A DNA stretch of 60,601 nucleotides from Bacteroidota bacterium (GCA_030682385.1 JAUXOG010000089.1:1-60601), one strand, 5' to 3'; shown: positions 1 through 14,560, counted from the first letter of the stretch. Program-made: numbers and translations. The notes: generated by a model not told the origin, from the letters alone.

Positions 1-42
1 TTGCGAGGTAAAGGGTTTCTGGAATAGTGAGATGCGTTAGCT

Positions 43-126
43 ATCCGCCTACGTTACACTTCGGCGGATTCTCAAAATTTCTTATAAGTTAGCTGCACAT
101 TGTTTGCTAACTTATGAAATTTTGGA
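43..126 (+). repeat. Paired-hairpin element copy A, at the 3' end of tRNA-Leu
   Basis: An 84-bp element. Hairpin 1 is ATCCGCC/GGCGGAT (43-49 with 66-72 approx.). It is followed by the core TTCTCAAAAT and a long hairpin 2 with arms TTTCTTATAAGTTAGC and GCTAACTTATGAAA, ending in ATTTTGGA. It abuts the 3' end of tRNA-Leu with two bases between. It is nearly identical to copy D at 7273-7356, which has the same length in the opposite orientation; differences are confined to the two loops. Confidence 0.8.
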
Positions 127-128
127 AG

Positions 129-212
129 TGCCGGAGGCGGGACTTGAACCCGCATGACCTTTCGGACGCCGCGCCCTGAACACGGTGTGTCTGCCAATTC
201 CACCACTCCGGC
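129..212 (-). tRNA. tRNA-Leu (anticodon CAG)
   Basis: On the minus strand this folds as a type II tRNA with a long variable arm. The acceptor stem is GCCGGAG/CTCCGGC with discriminator A. The anticodon stem CCGTG/CGCGG encloses loop TTCAGGG, giving anticodon CAG. The T-arm is CGGGTTCAAGTCCCG. CCA is not encoded. A repeat element begins two bases past the 3' end. Confidence 0.95.
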
Positions 213-2980: not shown

Positions 2981-3204
2981 TGCTTCGATTTTAACTTTGC
3001 TAAGTAATGAAGACGCTCGCAATAGAAGATAAATGGGGCTTATAAGAATTTCTTATCAAGAATAGAAACTAAACATGGAGAATCACCAATCAAAAAATAT
3101 CTCTGCTTGGCATAGATATTTTTGTTAAACCAAATGATGTTAAGGTGTTGGTAAAATATTCTGAGTTAGGATATATCAGTTGTATGAAAAAATGTGAAAA
3201 TTAG

Positions 3205-3278
<74 letters not shown>

Positions 3279-3355: not shown

Positions 3356-3422
3356 ATCCCGCCAAGAGCGGGATTCTCAAAATTGCAACCACTCGTAAAA
3401 AACACTCGTGGGCAATTTTCGA
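3356..3422 (+). repeat. Paired-hairpin element copy B, in the tRNA-Arg anticodon loop
   Basis: Hairpin 1 is a perfect ATCCCGC-CAAGA-GCGGGAT (3356-3374). The core TTCTCAAAAT follows. Hairpin 2 is short: CAAAATTGC pairs with GCAATTTT, with an inner repeat ACTCGT...ACTCGT. The flanks CAGCTT and AGAAGGCTG are the two sides of the tRNA-Arg anticodon loop on the other strand. Confidence 0.75.
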
Positions 3423-3449
3423 AGAAGGCTGATGCTCTATCCGATTGAG

Positions 3450-3532
3450 TCCCGCCTGCGGCGGGATTCTCAAAATGACTTATAACTTAACTTCTCCCGC
3501 TTTGCGGGATCGTTAAGTTATGTCATTTTGGA
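3450..3532 (+). repeat. Paired-hairpin element copy C, in the tRNA-Arg D-arm
   Basis: Hairpin 1 is TCCCGCC-TGC-GGCGGGA (3450-3466), followed by the core TTCTCAAAAT. Hairpin 2 has arms TGACTTATAACTTAAC and GTTAAGTTATGTCA and holds a nested palindrome TCCCGC-TTT-GCGGGA (3495-3509) at its tip. It ends ATTTTGGA. It splits the tRNA-Arg copy between GTAGC and CTCAATCGG. Confidence 0.8.
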
Positions 3533-3544
3533 GCTACGGGCCCA

Positions 3545-3600
3545 TATTAATTATCAATGGACAATTGTTAATTGCTAATTGTTGATTGTTGATTGATCAT
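3545..3600. repeat. AATTG-rich tract 5' of the broken tRNA-Arg
   Basis: A run of short interleaved words (TCAATGGACAATTG, TTAATTGCTAATTG, TTGATTGTTGATTGATCATTG) starts a few bases beyond the 5' end of the interrupted tRNA-Arg copy. Similar tracts lie at 7202-7258 and 7699-7734, each ending three bases before a tRNA-Arg 5' end. The rest of the 2981-3789 gap outside the tRNA material (2981-3204 and 3600-3789) shows no gene that I can support. Confidence 0.6.
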
Positions 3601-3789
3601 TGATTTCGTTTGAAAGATAAGAAAGATTGCAGAATTTTCCAAAGATTCCTCGTTTCTTGAAACGTAGAACGTTTCTTGTAATTTTCATAAATTTTCATTA
3701 AACTTGAACGCAGGGTTTAGTTATCAATACAATTCGCTAGTTCTTTTTGGAAAAAAACAAAAATTAAAAAATAAAAAAGGAATTTATTT

Positions 3790-4860
3790 ATGCACAAGAA
3801 ACTATTTATTCCCGGTCCAACAGAAGTAGCACCGGAGGTATTAGCCAAAATGGCTACACCAATGATCGGGCATCGGAGCAAAGATGCTTCAAACTTACAA
3901 CGTGAGATTACAGAAAAACTTCGCAAACTGATGTACACCGCAAATCCGATTCTACTCTCCACAACTTCAGGGTCGGGCTTGATGGAAGGCTCACTCAAAT
4001 CTTTAACTTCCAAACGAGCAGTAGTTTTTTCGGTTGGCGCATTCGGCGACCGATGGTTCAAGATGGCTGAAGCTAACGGAATACCGGCCGACAAACATTC
4101 TGCTGAACTAGGTAAACCAACTACACCTGAAATAGTCGACCAGTATTTATCCACCGGTAAGTACGACGTATTCACGATAACGCACAACGAAACGAGTACA
4201 GGAATCATGCACAACCTGGAACCGTTTGCAGATCTGAAGAAAAAATATCCCGACGTTTATTGGCTCGTGGATGCAGTAAGTTCACTCGGCGGCGTAAAGA
4301 TTGATGTCGATAAATTAGGAATCGATGTCTGTATAACTTCTACTCAAAAAGCGCTCGCTCTTCCTCCGGGAATGGCGATAGCTTCAGTTACAATGCGTGC
4401 CCTCGAACACGCCAAGACTGTAAAGAATCGCGGACTGTATCTCGATCTCGTTGACATCTATAGCTACATCGAGAAGAAAGATCATCAGTATTCTTCAACT
4501 CCATCGCTGTCGCATATGTTCGCACTCAATTTCCAACTCGACAGAATTTTAGCCGAAGGATTGGAGAACAGATTCAATCGTCATTTTGAGATGGCCGAAT
4601 ACACTCGCGCCTGGGCGAAGAAACATTTTGCTCTATTCCCCGAAGAAAAATTCGCTTCTCAAACACTTACTACAATTACAAATACTAAAAATATTTCAAT
4701 CGCAGACCTCAATAGCGGCTTGGGAAAACTCAATATGCAGATTTCGAACGGATACGGCGACCTGAAAGAAAAAACTTTCCGTATCGCACACATGGGCGAA
4801 CTGACGATGGACGATATTAAAGAAGTTACGTCTGCAATCGAAAAAATATTACAACTATAG
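3790..4860 (+). CDS. Class V aminotransferase, serine-glyoxylate/phosphoserine transaminase-like
   Basis: 356 residues, a PLP-dependent fold type I enzyme of the AGXT/SPT group. The N-terminus FIPGPTEVAPEVL is the family's phosphate/substrate loop. WLVDAVSSLGG holds the aspartate that contacts the PLP ring nitrogen (about D161). TSTQKALALPPG carries the Schiff-base lysine K187. The RBS AAAAAAGG precedes the ATG. The stop is 13 bp before a SerA-type dehydrogenase, so the pair most likely makes serine from 3-phosphoglycerate, with this gene as the transamination step (a phosphohydroxypyruvate aminotransferase not of the SerC family). Sequence alone cannot exclude alanine- or serine-glyoxylate aminotransferase activity. 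Confidence 0.85.
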   Translation: MHKKLFIPGPTEVAPEVLAKMATPMIGHRSKDASNLQREITEKLRKLMYTANPILLSTTSGSGLMEGSLKSLTSKRAVVFSVGAFGDRWFKMAEANGIPADKHSAELGKPTTPEIVDQYLSTGKYDVFTITHNETSTGIMHNLEPFADLKKKYPDVYWLVDAVSSLGGVKIDVDKLGIDVCITSTQKALALPPGMAIASVTMRALEHAKTVKNRGLYLDLVDIYSYIEKKDHQYSSTPSLSHMFALNFQLDRILAEGLENRFNRHFEMAEYTRAWAKKHFALFPEEKFASQTLTTITNTKNISIADLNSGLGKLNMQISNGYGDLKEKTFRIAHMGELTMDDIKEVTSAIEKILQL

Positions 4861-4873
4861 AAAGGTATGAATT

Positions 4874-5782
4874 ATGAAAATATTAATCTCCGATGGAATT
4901 GAGGATATTGGCAAAAAGATATTACTCAATGCCGGTTTTGAAGTTGTAGATAAAAAACTTTCACCCGAAGAACTTCTTCAACAAATTCCGGAATACGATG
5001 CAATCATTGTTCGGTCAGCAACCAAAGTAACAAAAGAAGTAATTGATATCGGTACAAAATTAAAAGCCATTGCCCGCGGCGGTGTTGGTTTGGATAATAT
5101 CGATGTGGCATACGCAAAGAGCAAAGGAATTCCAGTACTCAATACTCCCGGTGCGTCGGCAATATCGGTGGCAGAGTTGGCGATCGCGCATATGTTCGCT
5201 CTATGCCGGTTTTTGCACGTTTCCACATCAGAAATGCGGAATTTGAAGTGGCCCAAAAAAGAATACAGTAAAGGCATTGAGCTTACCGGTAAAACGCTTG
5301 GTATTTTTGGAATCGGAAGCATCGGTAAGGAAGTTGCAAAACGGGCAATCGGTTTGGGGATGAATGTGATTGCTTACGATCCGTTTGTTACAACAACCGA
5401 TTTAAATGTAAAGCTAACCACTCAGGATGAAGTTTTGAAACAATCGGATTTTATATCGCTGCATATTCCACTTGATAAAAAAGTTGGCGCCGCGATTACG
5501 AAAAAAGAATTCGATATGATGAAGAACGGTGTAGTATTGATAAACTGCGCCCGCGGCGGTGTAGTTTCAGAAACTGATTTGCTTGAAGCGCTGAAAAGTG
5601 GAAAAGTTGCCGGTGCCGGTATCGATGTATTCGTGAACGAACCTACAACAGAATCACAAAAGGAACTTCTCAATCATCCTAATGTTTCGGCAACGCCACA
5701 CATCGGCGCCTCGACAAACGAAGCACAAGAACGTGTTGGCGAAGAAATCGCGACTAAAGTTGTGAATGCACTAAAATCGTGA
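4874..5782 (+). CDS. serA: D-3-phosphoglycerate dehydrogenase, short form
   Basis: 302 residues of the D-2-hydroxyacid dehydrogenase family. The NAD-binding loop is GIFGIGSIG (about 143-151) with the acidic D169 at the end of the second strand (VIAYDP). The catalytic triad is visible as R227 (NCARGGVV), E256 (VFVNEP) and H276 (TPHIGAST). RSATKVTKEVI and NTPGASAISVAELAIAH match phosphoglycerate dehydrogenases. It lacks the C-terminal ACT domain, so serine feedback through that domain is not expected. It lies 13 bp after the aminotransferase, probably in one transcript, and is followed by a hairpin terminator candidate. Confidence 0.88.
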   Translation: MKILISDGIEDIGKKILLNAGFEVVDKKLSPEELLQQIPEYDAIIVRSATKVTKEVIDIGTKLKAIARGGVGLDNIDVAYAKSKGIPVLNTPGASAISVAELAIAHMFALCRFLHVSTSEMRNLKWPKKEYSKGIELTGKTLGIFGIGSIGKEVAKRAIGLGMNVIAYDPFVTTTDLNVKLTTQDEVLKQSDFISLHIPLDKKVGAAITKKEFDMMKNGVVLINCARGGVVSETDLLEALKSGKVAGAGIDVFVNEPTTESQKELLNHPNVSATPHIGASTNEAQERVGEEIATKVVNALKS

Positions 5783-5823
5783 TAGTAAAATTTAAACTCA
5801 CTTCACACTCTCGAAATATTTCC

Positions 5824-5866
5824 GAACTCAACCTTCGACAACTTTGTAGAGGGTTGAGTTCTTTAT
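5824..5866 (+). terminator. Rho-independent terminator candidate after serA
   Basis: GAACTCAACC (5824-5833) pairs perfectly with GGTTGAGTTC (5852-5861) around an 18-base loop. The T-tract after it is weak (TTTATACTTT). It sits between serA and the DUF1015 gene. Confidence 0.6.
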
Positions 5867-5907
5867 ACTTTATCTAAACAAAAATATAAACAGAATTAAT
5901 ATTTATT

Positions 5908-7152
5908 ATGGCAATATTACGACCTTTTCACGGCTGGCGTCCCCTGCCTCAATATGCAGCCGAAGTAGCAGCAAAACCTTACGATGTTCTAAACTCCGAA
6001 GAAGCAAGAAAAGAAGCTGAAGGACATCCTCTAAGTTTTTTACACGTCGGCAAACCCGAAATCGATTTAGAACCTTCGATACATCTCTACGACCCGCGTG
6101 TTTATCAAAAAGCAAAAGAGAATTTAAACAAATTTATTAACGAAGGAATCTTACAAAAAGATCAGGAACCTTATTTTTACTTATACGCTCAAACGATGGG
6201 AACACACACGCAATACGGAATTGTAGGTTGTGTTTCTGTTCAAGAATACTTGAACGATACAATAAAGAAACACGAACTGACTCGTAAAGATAAAGAAGAC
6301 GACCGTACAAATCACGTACGAGTTACAAACGCACACACAGGTCCCATTTTCTTAACATATCCTGCACACAACGAGGTTGATAAAATTGTTGAACAAGTAT
6401 CTGCATCCAAGCCGGTTTATGATTTTGTTGCGGCAGATAGTATACGTCATCAATTTTGGCTAATCACAGATCAAAATACAATCGCACAAATAAAAAAACT
6501 TTTCGAATCTATTCCTACACTTTATGTCGCCGATGGACATCACCGCTCAGCATCGGCTGCAAGAATGGGAGTTGAACTGGCGAGTAACAATCCTAACCAC
6601 GCGGGCAATGAAGAATACAATTTTTTTCTCGCCGTTCTCTTCCCTCACAATCAATTAAAAATTTTGGATTATAACCGTGTTGTTAAAAATTTGAACGATA
6701 GAAATGTTGATGAATTTCTGAATGAGGTAAAAAGTAAGTTCGAAATTGAAGAATCGTCTGCACAAGCTAAGCCGAGAATGAAAGGCGAATTCGGAATGTA
6801 CCTCAACAAAAAATGGTATTATTTACGTCCGCTTCCGACGTTGATTGTAAATGATGATATAATTGCCCGCCTTGATGTTTCAATTTTGCAAAATCACTTG
6901 TTGAAGCCGCTGCTTGGAATAGATGACCCCCGCACAAGTAAAAATATTGATTTTGTGGGGGGAATCAGAGGTTTGGGCGAGCTTGAACGCCGCGTTGATT
7001 CAGGCGAAATGGCTGTTGCGTTTGCCCTTTTTCCAACTTCTATCGAAGAGTTGATGGCGATTGCGGATGCCGGTAAAATTATGCCTCCGAAATCAACATG
7101 GTTCGAACCGAAACTGAGAGACGGACTTGTGATACATTTTTTAAGTGAATAA
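5908..7152 (+). CDS. DUF1015 family protein, serine-gene neighbour
   Basis: 414 residues. The start MAILRPFHGWRP, the segment AAKPYDVL near residue 20, NAHTGPIFLTYP, and YVADGHHRSASAARM near residue 210 are the family's conserved blocks. The DGHHR block resembles the ParB/SerK-type fold, so phosphate transfer or hydrolysis is possible, but I know of no proven activity. In many genomes this family lies beside serA and a serine-pathway aminotransferase, as here. The final serine-pathway step (phosphoserine phosphatase) is not otherwise represented in the window, which makes a role there an attractive inference only. No signal peptide; cytoplasmic. Confidence 0.75.
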   Translation: MAILRPFHGWRPLPQYAAEVAAKPYDVLNSEEARKEAEGHPLSFLHVGKPEIDLEPSIHLYDPRVYQKAKENLNKFINEGILQKDQEPYFYLYAQTMGTHTQYGIVGCVSVQEYLNDTIKKHELTRKDKEDDRTNHVRVTNAHTGPIFLTYPAHNEVDKIVEQVSASKPVYDFVAADSIRHQFWLITDQNTIAQIKKLFESIPTLYVADGHHRSASAARMGVELASNNPNHAGNEEYNFFLAVLFPHNQLKILDYNRVVKNLNDRNVDEFLNEVKSKFEIEESSAQAKPRMKGEFGMYLNKKWYYLRPLPTLIVNDDIIARLDVSILQNHLLKPLLGIDDPRTSKNIDFVGGIRGLGELERRVDSGEMAVAFALFPTSIEELMAIADAGKIMPPKSTWFEPKLRDGLVIHFLSE

Positions 7153-7201
7153 TTTTTTTGGAATAATCAACTTTGTTTCTTATTTTGTTACCGCAACGAG
7201 A

Positions 7202-7260
7202 CAATTGTTAATAGCTAATTTACAATTATCAATTGGCAATTGACCATTAGCAATTAGAAT
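7202..7260. repeat. AATTG-rich tract, left copy by the tRNA-Arg(TCG) duplication
   Basis: Alternating words such as CAATTGTTAATAG, CAATTATCAATTGG and CAATTGACCATTAG. The last ten bases plus the next twelve (7251-7272) are repeated exactly at 7728-7749, where they join the real tRNA-Arg. Confidence 0.6.
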
Positions 7261-7272
7261 GCGCCTGTAGCT

Positions 7273-7356
7273 TCCAAAATTTCATAAGTTAGCAAATGTA
7301 ATGCAGCTAACTTATAAGAAATTTTGAGAATCCGCCGAAGTGAAACAAAGGCGGAT
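7273..7356 (-). repeat. Paired-hairpin element copy D, in the tRNA-Arg(TCG) D-arm
   Basis: An 84-bp element, the near-identical reverse complement of copy A (43-126): TCCAAAATTTC, hairpin 2, GAGAATCCGCC, loop, GGCGGAT. It begins right after GTAGCT of a tRNA-Arg 5' fragment. This is the homologous position, within a base or two, to that used by copy C in the other tRNA-Arg. Confidence 0.8.
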
Positions 7357-7396
7357 CAATAAAATAAAACACACGCGCCTGTAGCTCAATTGGATA

Positions 7397-7444
7397 CCCG
7401 CCCGACCGAACGTTAGAGAGCTCATTATCGGTCGTTCGGGCGGG
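7397..7444. repeat. Palindrome inside a tRNA-Arg fragment
   Basis: CCCGCCCGA (7397-7405) pairs with TCGGGCGGG (7436-7444), and ACCGA with TCGGT inside it. It separates GGATA from GAGCATC of the tRNA-Arg sequence, on the 3' side of the D-loop. Confidence 0.7.
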
Positions 7445-7461
7445 GAGCATCAGTTTGATAT

Positions 7462-7734
7462 ATGAAACACTATGTTTATATATTGAAGAGTTGTAGAGAT
7501 AGTAAAAGATATATCGGTATGACAACTGATCTTGAAAGAAGATTAGGAGAACACAATGCAAAAAAGACTAAATCTACAAAAGGACGCGGTCCTTTTGTAT
7601 TAGAATATTTTGAAGAGTTCGATACACGACTTGCAGCAAGAGAAAGAGAAAAGTATTTTAAAACCGCTGCCGGTAGAAGGTTAATAACTGAAAAGTTAAT
7701 AATTAACTATCAGCAATTAGCCATTGACAATTAG
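7462..7734 (+). CDS. Small GIY-YIG nuclease-like protein (UPF0213 type)
   Basis: 90 residues. It has YVYIL (the GIY strand) at 4-8, YIGMT at 17-21, the conserved arginines of DLERRLGEHN at 24-32, and AAREREKYFKTAAGRR at 58-73, which carries the catalytic-type glutamate. It is one domain with no separate DNA-binding module. Such proteins are common in this phylum, often near RNA genes; their function is largely unknown. The gene lies inside a 477-bp segment bounded by 22-bp direct repeats carrying the tRNA-Arg 5' end. Its last residues (QQLAIDN) and stop codon are supplied by the right-hand AATTG tract, so the 3' end of the gene was formed by, or fused to, the repeat. Confidence 0.8.
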   Translation: MKHYVYILKSCRDSKRYIGMTTDLERRLGEHNAKKTKSTKGRGPFVLEYFEEFDTRLAAREREKYFKTAAGRRLITEKLIINYQQLAIDN

Positions 7735-7737
7735 AAT

Positions 7738-7811
7738 GCGCCTGTAGCTCAATTGGATAGAGCATCTGCCTTCGGAGCAGAGGGTTAGGGGTTCAAGTCC
7801 CTTCAGGCGTA
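7738..7811 (+). tRNA. tRNA-Arg (anticodon TCG)
   Basis: Complete cloverleaf: acceptor GCGCCTG/CAGGCGT with G1-U72, discriminator A. Anticodon stem TCTGC/GCAGA encloses loop CTTCGGA, giving anticodon TCG. CCA is not encoded. This is the intact copy downstream of the broken ones. An AATTG tract (7699-7734) ends three bases before it. Confidence 0.95.
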
Positions 7812-7872
7812 CAAATTTATACGCCGCTACTCTCTTTGCTTTTTTCTCAAATCATATTAATCTTGAAATCAA

Positions 7873-14054: not shown

Positions 14055-14127
14055 GCCCCTATCGTCTAGAGGCCTAGGACACGAGCTTTTCAAGCTTGGA
14101 ACACGGGTTCGAATCCCGTTGGGGGCA
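14055..14127 (+). tRNA. tRNA-Glu (anticodon TTC)
   Basis: Acceptor GCCCCTA/TGGGGGC with discriminator A. Anticodon stem CGAGC/GCTTG encloses loop TTTTCAA, giving anticodon TTC. T-arm is ACGGGTTCGAATCCCGT. Parts of this gene and its 3' flank recur at 14237-14382, 14383-14555 and 34760-34980. Confidence 0.95.
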
Positions 14128-14146
14128 CTGCAAAAAATATCAAATT

Positions 14147-14220: not shown

Positions 14221-14236
14221 TTAAGTGATGAGGTGT

Positions 14237-14382
14237 GCTTTTCAAATCCCGCTTCTCCGCCTTCGACGGATACAGCGGGATCCGCAATTCGACTGATAAC
14301 ATATCTGCACTACGTTTGATAAATTATGTCGAATTGGGACTTGGAACATCCCGACAAAGTCGGGAAATCCCGTTGGGGGCAC
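14237..14382 (+). pseudogene. Broken tRNA-Glu copy 2, anticodon loop split by element E
   Basis: GCTTTTCAA (14237-14245) is the tRNA-Glu anticodon arm up to base 38. Element E (14246-14339) is inserted there, and the gene resumes with CTTGGAACA. In the T-arm the bases CGGGTTCG are replaced by a palindrome TCCCGAC-AAA-GTCGGGA (14349-14365), after which AATCCCGTTGGGGGCAC ends the tRNA. Most of the 5' half has been lost. Confidence 0.8.
14246..14339 (+). repeat. Paired-hairpin element copy E, in the tRNA-Glu anticodon loop
   Basis: Hairpin 1: ATCCCGC...GCGGGAT (14246-14282), with a smaller TCCG...CGGA inside the loop. The core is CCGCAATT. Hairpin 2 has CAATTCGAC pairing with GTCGAATTG, and the end is GGGA. 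It is a variant subfamily of copies A-D: the positions are the same but the arms differ. Confidence 0.75.
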
Positions 14383-14560
14383 TCCGAAAAATATCAAATT
14401 ACAAATCCGCCGGCGGCGGACAAATTTCAAATCAATAACAAAAGCCACGATAGTTTGTCGGGGCTTTTGTCCTTTTAAGTGATGAGGTGTGCTATTCAAA
14501 TACCGCTTCTCCGCCTTCGACAGATACAACGGGATCCGCAATTCGACTGATAACACTTCT
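14383..14560 (+). repeat. Tandem copy of the tRNA-Glu flank with partial element F
   Basis: This repeats 14128-14300 at a period of 254 bp: the flank with palindrome (14401-14426), terminator copy (14439-14474), GCTATTCAA of the tRNA anticodon arm (14491-14499), and the first half of an element like E (14500-14555). It stops before hairpin 2 closes. Together with the surrounding RNA genes this fills the 13776-14625 gap; no protein gene is evident. Confidence 0.75.

Follow-up and report, generated by a model that had tools for sequence, protein, structure and literature searches.

Hairpin-interrupted tRNA copies beside a small GIY-YIG endonuclease gene in a Bacteroidota genome: probable remains of a homing cassette

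The stretch of DNA analyzed here, called the window in what follows, comprises 60,601 nucleotides of a Bacteroidota bacterium (GCA_030682385.1 JAUXOG010000089.1:1-60601) and is contig C128 (G000:C128) of a 3.38-Mb genome in 140 contigs. It contains five transfer RNA (tRNA) genes, and broken extra copies lie near three of them, tRNA-Arg(TCT), tRNA-Arg(TCG) and tRNA-Glu(TTC). Our subject is the two hairpin-forming elements, C and D, that are lodged in the broken tRNA-Arg copies, together with the gene for a small GIY-YIG endonuclease that stands between the broken and the intact copy of tRNA-Arg(TCG). We suggest that these features are probably what remains of a homing cassette. The two tRNA-Arg loci are laid out as follows.

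3204-3278, minus strand: intact tRNA-Arg(TCT)
about 3357-3423, minus strand: element C2, the second double hairpin of the displaced tRNA-Arg(TCT) copy, inserted in its anticodon loop
3423-3449, minus strand: displaced tRNA-Arg(TCT) copy resumed, D arm to anticodon, CTCAATCGGATAGAGCATCAGCCTTCT
3450-3531, minus strand: element C, a double hairpin
3495-3509: nested palindrome TCCCGCTTTGCGGGA within the first loop of element C
3532-3543, minus strand: 5' fragment (nucleotides 1-12) of the second tRNA-Arg(TCT) copy, GGGCCCGTAGCT
7261-7272, plus strand: outer 5' fragment (nucleotides 1-12) of tRNA-Arg(TCG), GCGCCTGTAGCT
7272-7356, plus strand: element D, a double hairpin capping the outer 5' fragment
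7375-7396, plus strand: inner 5' fragment (nucleotides 1-22) of tRNA-Arg(TCG), GCGCCTGTAGCTCAATTGGATA
7397-7444, plus strand: palindrome CCCGCCCGACCGAACG...CGGTCGTTCGGGCGGG, inserted at GGATA^GAGC of the tRNA-Arg(TCG) copy
7445-7453, plus strand: displaced tRNA-Arg(TCG) copy resumed, GAGCATCAG
7462-7734, plus strand: GIY-YIG endonuclease open reading frame (ORF), 90 amino acids (PF01541, E 5.8e-18)
7738-7812, plus strand: intact tRNA-Arg(TCG)

In the displaced tRNA-Arg(TCT) copy, AAGCTG comes right after element C2. At tRNA-Arg(TCG) the outer fragment ends at element D, and what follows is a new leader and a second 5' fragment rather than the remainder of the same tRNA. This inner fragment and its palindrome run into the ORF, which stops four bases short of the intact gene.

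Relatives of the ORF were collected from its own genome, from named genomes and from genomes of the same class, for a set of 111 loci. A tRNA gene lies no more than 200 nucleotides from the ORF in 87 of the 111, where tRNA density would give about 1% (a rough estimate), but the collection began from a tRNA-linked ORF, and among small GIY-YIG genes in general the share may be lower. The two genes share a strand in 86 of the 87 cases, which involve 25 tRNA species. At least one relative of the ORF is present in 72 of 149 class-level genomes; the named loci belong to Ignavibacteriales, Flavobacteriales, Chitinophagaceae and other Bacteroidota, apart from a small number in Verrucomicrobia, Desulfoferrobacter and candidate phyla. 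As expected of free-standing homing endonuclease genes, the ORFs encode a GIY-YIG domain with its catalytic residues, the active-site positions Y, Y, G, R, H and E being almost invariant among 86 ORFs. GIY-YIG-like matches were also seen in two long open frames of 1146 and 1158 codons, away from tRNAs (L040, G000:C25:3129, and L041, G000:C39:2545).

Of the 84 loci with enough room past the ORF, 76 have part of the same tRNA there again, against 3 of 86 in a reversed-tRNA control. An intact tRNA upstream goes with a partial copy that retains the 3' end (48 of 53 loci), and an intact tRNA downstream with one that retains the 5' end (19 of 23), so the whole unit begins with a tRNA 5' end and finishes with a tRNA 3' end. 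It resembles the outcome of an entry of the ORF into a tRNA gene, followed by restoration of one of the two halves. Tandem arrays of ORF and broken tRNA occur at three loci (L049, L065 and L071).

The broken copies carry palindromes, often two or three in succession, and these are not spread evenly over the tRNA: 49 of 64 clean insertions fall within or border on the D, anticodon or T loop, places that would receive 35% under a uniform spread (p = 1e-11). For those in the T loop the point of insertion is TTC^R in 20 of 22 cases, the hairpin sequences themselves being diverse, and this site overlaps the cleavage motif reported for the phage endonuclease SegB, discussed below. In one tRNA-Ser(GCT) copy (L140) the anticodon loop, variable arm and T loop all carry hairpins, and the D arm is partly replaced. 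The palindrome at GGATA^GAGC recurs, of the same kind and at the same site, at 7397-7444 of the window, in contig C43, at locus L047 and in genome G141. A search for T-loop-type hairpins that was blind to the ORF returned eight matches in 118 genomes; four of these lie in tRNA T arms, two with a GIY-YIG ORF nearby.

The original prediction held that C and D, while differing in sequence, occupy the same D-arm position in two tRNA-Arg copies and in the same orientation, through two independent hits that reflect site preference and not chance. A base-by-base check bore out the position and the orientation: each element is placed after nucleotide 12 of a partial tRNA-Arg copy, TCT and TCG respectively, with the intact gene adjoining, and each reads (T)TCCAAAAT after GTAGC(T). 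Conversion of one tRNA-Arg copy by the other found no support, as each fragment matches its own tRNA (GGGCCC... vs GCGCCTG...). The sequences of C and D are indeed unlike, but both belong to one double-hairpin family, which includes C2 and the element at 43-127 and is built of TTCCAA-stem-TTG, GAGAATCC and then a GC-rich hairpin. Across 14 copies, two-sided changes that preserve pairing occur, in at least one sequence, at 11 of the 21 stem pairs predicted for the first hairpin; the second is evident in every sequence, with no alignment across copies. What is conserved in the dispersed copies is a structure of two adjoining hairpins.

Copies of the family in the same genome, gathered by pattern and protein searches in a list that may be incomplete, number about 16 in 3.38 Mb. 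Because almost all of them touch tRNA sequence, chance is not a plausible origin, and the preference for tRNA stands. The exceptions are two copies in plain intergenic sequence, C17 and C27. Copies in the 5' fragments of broken Arg-type tRNAs follow nucleotide 7, 10 (C43), 10 (C130, in tRNA-Arg(CCT)), 12 and 12 (the last two in the window). Further copies occupy the anticodon loops of the displaced tRNA-Arg(TCT) and tRNA-Glu(TTC) in the window, or lie directly past the intact 3' ends of tRNA-Leu(CAG), tRNA-Arg(CCG), tRNA-Glu(CTC) and tRNA-Ala(GGC), and one in contig C59 stands inverted ahead of a tRNA-Leu 3' fragment. Placed on tRNA coordinates, the insertions in 5' fragments cluster at nucleotides 7-13, but other sites are used as well, and preference for a single D-arm site does not cover the whole pattern.

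Comparison with related genomes revealed both empty sites and remnants. In G150 (same family) a single tRNA-Arg(TCG) forms an empty site with synteny kept, between the counterpart of the window gene at 5908-7149 before it and an amidohydrolase-like gene (named by eye) after it. G141, of the same genus and with 93% protein identity in the counterpart of that window gene, has no cassette at TCG, and an integrase-like gene adjoins the 3' part of its tRNA-Arg(TCG). The adjoining gene was recognized by eye as a putative tyrosine-integrase gene at L201 (C134) and L223 (C113), and another mobile element may use the same tRNA-Arg(TCG) in G141. At TCT, G121 and G150 have one intact tRNA-Arg(TCT) only, and in G141 there is a broken copy, interrupted by an element at nucleotide 12 and a palindrome at GGATA^GAGC, followed by a GIY-YIG remnant and the intact tRNA. 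The remnant is a GIY-YIG C-terminus of about 28 codons (profile E 3.9e-5), and the first hairpin of the element is closer to D than to C. Because G141 has this nucleotide-12 element and ORF remnant, the site of element C is older than the split of the window species and G141, and the TCT copy once held a GIY-YIG ORF, lost in the window species. The ORF is thus present at TCG and, at TCT, gone in the window species with a remnant in G141. Since C and D are each lodged in what is left of one kind of nuclease cassette, their common position may derive partly from cassette history; the two hits do speak for preference, but their independence is put in question by the TCT copy of G141, already occupied at the identical position. 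A gene adjoining its presumed target, with cassette-free alleles in relatives, is the pattern expected of a homing gene.

The nuclease lineages also sort by tRNA. A tree of 86 ORFs, built from 75 columns and poorly resolved with many open forks, needs 27 changes in the amino acid of the associated tRNA, where 500 shuffles gave 55 on average and never fewer than 47; for the isoacceptor it needs 46, where the shuffles gave 70 on average and never fewer than 63. Paralogues from the window's genome group with foreign ORFs at the same tRNA, for example at Leu(CAA) and Ser(GCT). Placement of the ORF upstream or downstream of the tRNA was considered as a lineage trait and discarded, as it gave no signal (20 changes vs 22.4 shuffled).

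We consider it probable, at about 0.68, that the region holds the remains of a SegB-like homing cassette for which tRNA genes are both target and homology arms. The cassette would consist of a free-standing GIY-YIG gene of about 90 amino acids between two copies of one tRNA gene, one intact and the other partial, with its loops plugged by palindromic hairpins. The nuclease would cut, at a conserved sequence in one of the loops, a tRNA gene that lacks the cassette. Repair of the break would use the locus with the cassette as template and the tRNA copies on either side as homology, leaving the recipient with the ORF, an intact tRNA and a partial copy that is redundant; tandem arrays could then arise by unequal exchange or by recurrence of such events. 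Redundant copies would be free to acquire, or would be selected to retain, hairpins that disrupt the recognition sequence, and C and D would be members of the dispersed double-hairpin family lodged in such copies. From this arrangement we infer the cutting, the homing and whatever protection the hairpins may give. The earlier interpretation of C and D, partly supported, is superseded by this nuclease-cassette reading. We propose only tentatively a more general form, in which selfish cassettes widespread in bacteria home into tRNA genes and use a hairpin-plugged, uncleavable copy of the target as homology arm; the hairpins, like minimal non-splicing introns placed exactly at the recognition sequence, would confer immunity during the regeneration of an intact tRNA.

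Several points weigh against a homing cassette. Cutting and transfer are steps that we infer, apart from GIY-YIG the ORF lacks a DNA-binding domain, which leaves unexplained how so small a protein would find its site, and the intact tRNA should be cut too, its survival being likewise unexplained. Ten of the 86 tRNA-adjacent ORFs have no far-side copy (two of these lack room), and the partial copies end at widely differing points, a spread that a single cut site would not predict. Decorated copies occur without an ORF, as with the tRNA-Glu of the window and the tRNA-Gly in L229. The clustering by tRNA, on a tree poorly resolved by its 75 columns, could be partly vertical descent, and tRNA-linked members may be over-sampled among loci that were found through similarity to a tRNA-linked gene.

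Among other explanations, the one with the most to recommend it, which we regard as possible without favoring it, is that the hairpins are mobile units that preferentially enter extruded hairpins of single-stranded DNA at the tip. Hairpin-rich redundant tRNA copies would be a safe landing place, and the GIY-YIG gene would be a bystander or only the source of the redundancy. This would account for T- and anticodon-loop insertions at or near the dyad centre (GGTTC^GAATCC, GGTTTG^CTAAACC) and for palindromes nested in the loops of other palindromes (3495-3509 inside C, for example, and C97), and it agrees with the abundance of TCCCGC..GCGGGA, found 45 times in the genome vs 2 for the reversed pattern and many times outside tRNAs. 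It agrees less well with the D-loop site of the Arg lineages, GGATA^GAGC, which is the 3' edge of the loop and not its tip, and it leaves the ORF between the copies unexplained. Genome-wide, moreover, the flanks of the palindromes are barely more complementary than shuffled ones (mean 4.86 vs 4.32), and with so weak an excess a general targeting of hairpin tips by TCCCGC..GCGGGA outside tRNAs was not relied on.

It is unlikely that C and D represent a palindromic element with a sequence-specific D-arm insertion of its own, moved in trans by a transposase of the IS200/IS605 or REP/RAYT type. The use of the same nucleotide in two tRNA-Arg copies, and of nucleotides 7-13 by all five copies in 5' fragments, would suit such an element, but copies also lie in anticodon loops, past tRNA 3' ends and at two plain intergenic places, and their flanking bases have no obvious common target. 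Readings of the element as attC-like or IS200-like were weighed on its sequence alone. Ordinary tandem duplication of a tRNA and its neighbour gene, with the ORF acting non-selfishly in tRNA or repair, has slightly less in its favor still: tRNA-ORF tandem arrays do exist and the same-strand layout would permit co-transcription, whereas the range of 25 different tRNA genes, the presence and absence between close relatives, the loop-precise interruptions and the retention of one outer tRNA end on each side are not what duplication would lead one to expect. Least probable is that the partial tRNAs are scars of integrases that inserted in and restored tRNA genes and later decayed. The integrase-like neighbour of the tRNA-Arg(TCG) 3' end in G141 is of the right kind, but no integrase lies between copies in the window, where the tRNA-Arg(TCG) copies enclose a GIY-YIG ORF only; the constant neighbour is GIY-YIG; and partial copies that keep the 5' end (19) occur along with those that keep the 3' end (48), although integrases normally displace one end. 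A group I intron was also considered and rejected, an Rfam scan of the window at gathering scores having given tRNAs only.

Of the systems studied, the closest to the homing cassette is phage T6 SegB, a free-standing homing endonuclease of the GIY-YIG type whose cuts fall in tRNA genes, with RAWTSGAAC as the preferred site (PMC13096335). The reverse complement of this site, GTTCSAWTY, is T-loop-like, and the hairpins described here interrupt that place. Tandem tRNA-segB repeats produced by recombination are reported, and such genes are frequent near tRNAs in phages (PMC13096335). SegB and the T-even phage GIY-YIG genes share with our loci a nuclease beside tRNAs, a T-loop-like motif and tandem tRNA-nuclease repeats; they differ in belonging to phage genomes, the sections of that report drawn on here make no mention of hairpin-interrupted tRNA copies (PMC13096335), and the ORFs here are of about 90 amino acids. 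A tblastn search of a phage collection with the window ORF found no T-even phage and, at E <= 1e-5, only Listeria and Rhizobium phage records. With no close phage relative in that search, a phage origin of the ORF was rejected; close kinship with SegB found no support in the phage tblastn, no direct comparison with SegB having been made.

Mobile ORFs (mORFs) of fungal mitochondria (Allomyces, Glomus) are endonuclease ORFs that make hybrid genes (PMC3630166). As in our loci, the ORF supplies a replacement for the end of the host gene, and the native end is displaced past the ORF (PMC3630166). Duplication of the host gene end with displacement past the ORF is what we see in 76 of 84 loci, a likeness of architecture and not of ancestry. 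The mORFs concern mitochondrial protein genes, in the atp6 case with a LAGLIDADG ORF, whereas here bacterial tRNA genes are involved and either end can be displaced. Elements C and D resemble in structure the double-hairpin and repetitive hairpin-forming elements of mitochondria, which are short, dispersed and often tandem and lie between genes and inside RNA genes (PMC2800124); unlike these, they are bound to redundant tRNA copies beside a nuclease gene, at defined loop positions and in bacterial chromosomes.

We view the cassette as a variant of tRNA-associated GIY-YIG homing genes. No description of it in bacterial chromosomes was found in the open-licence PMC literature (weak evidence), where broader topics led to mitochondrial and phage work. 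Because tRNA genes are essential and highly conserved, a nuclease directed at them has a permanent target in every genome, and it must spare tRNA function; the architecture suggests a way of doing so, which is to regenerate the tRNA and leave a blocked copy. The reading offers an explanation for tRNA pseudogenes, for hairpin repeats beside tRNAs and for short ORFs of the 'GIY-YIG nuclease family' in Bacteroidota-type genomes. It also makes the blocking of homing sites by hairpins testable and ties bacterial tRNA loci to phage SegB and to mitochondrial mobile ORFs.

The remaining tRNA features of the window are listed below.

43-127, minus strand: double-hairpin element directly past the 3' end of tRNA-Leu(CAG)
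128-212, minus strand: tRNA-Leu(CAG)
14055-14128, plus strand: intact tRNA-Glu(TTC)
14232-14382, plus strand: displaced tRNA-Glu(TTC) copy
14247-14339: double-hairpin element in inverted orientation, inserted in the anticodon loop of the displaced tRNA-Glu(TTC) copy
14349-14365: hairpin in place of part of the T arm of the displaced tRNA-Glu(TTC) copy

No GIY-YIG ORF was found at the displaced tRNA-Glu(TTC) copy (14232-14382), a block that is partly repeated in tandem at 14383-14560. At L229 (G002:C47), where no GIY-YIG ORF was found either, a tRNA-Gly(GCC) has a hairpin-interrupted 3' fragment about 30 nucleotides downstream. AT-rich, quasi-periodic spacers, variants of AATTGNCAATTAG, flank tRNA copies at 3546-3617, 7200-7256 and 7696-7736 and are present elsewhere as well. 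The end of contig C59 (L199/L170) overlaps the left end of the window (1-60) and contains two more tRNA-Leu(CAG) 3' fragments, one of which is preceded by the inverted double-hairpin element.

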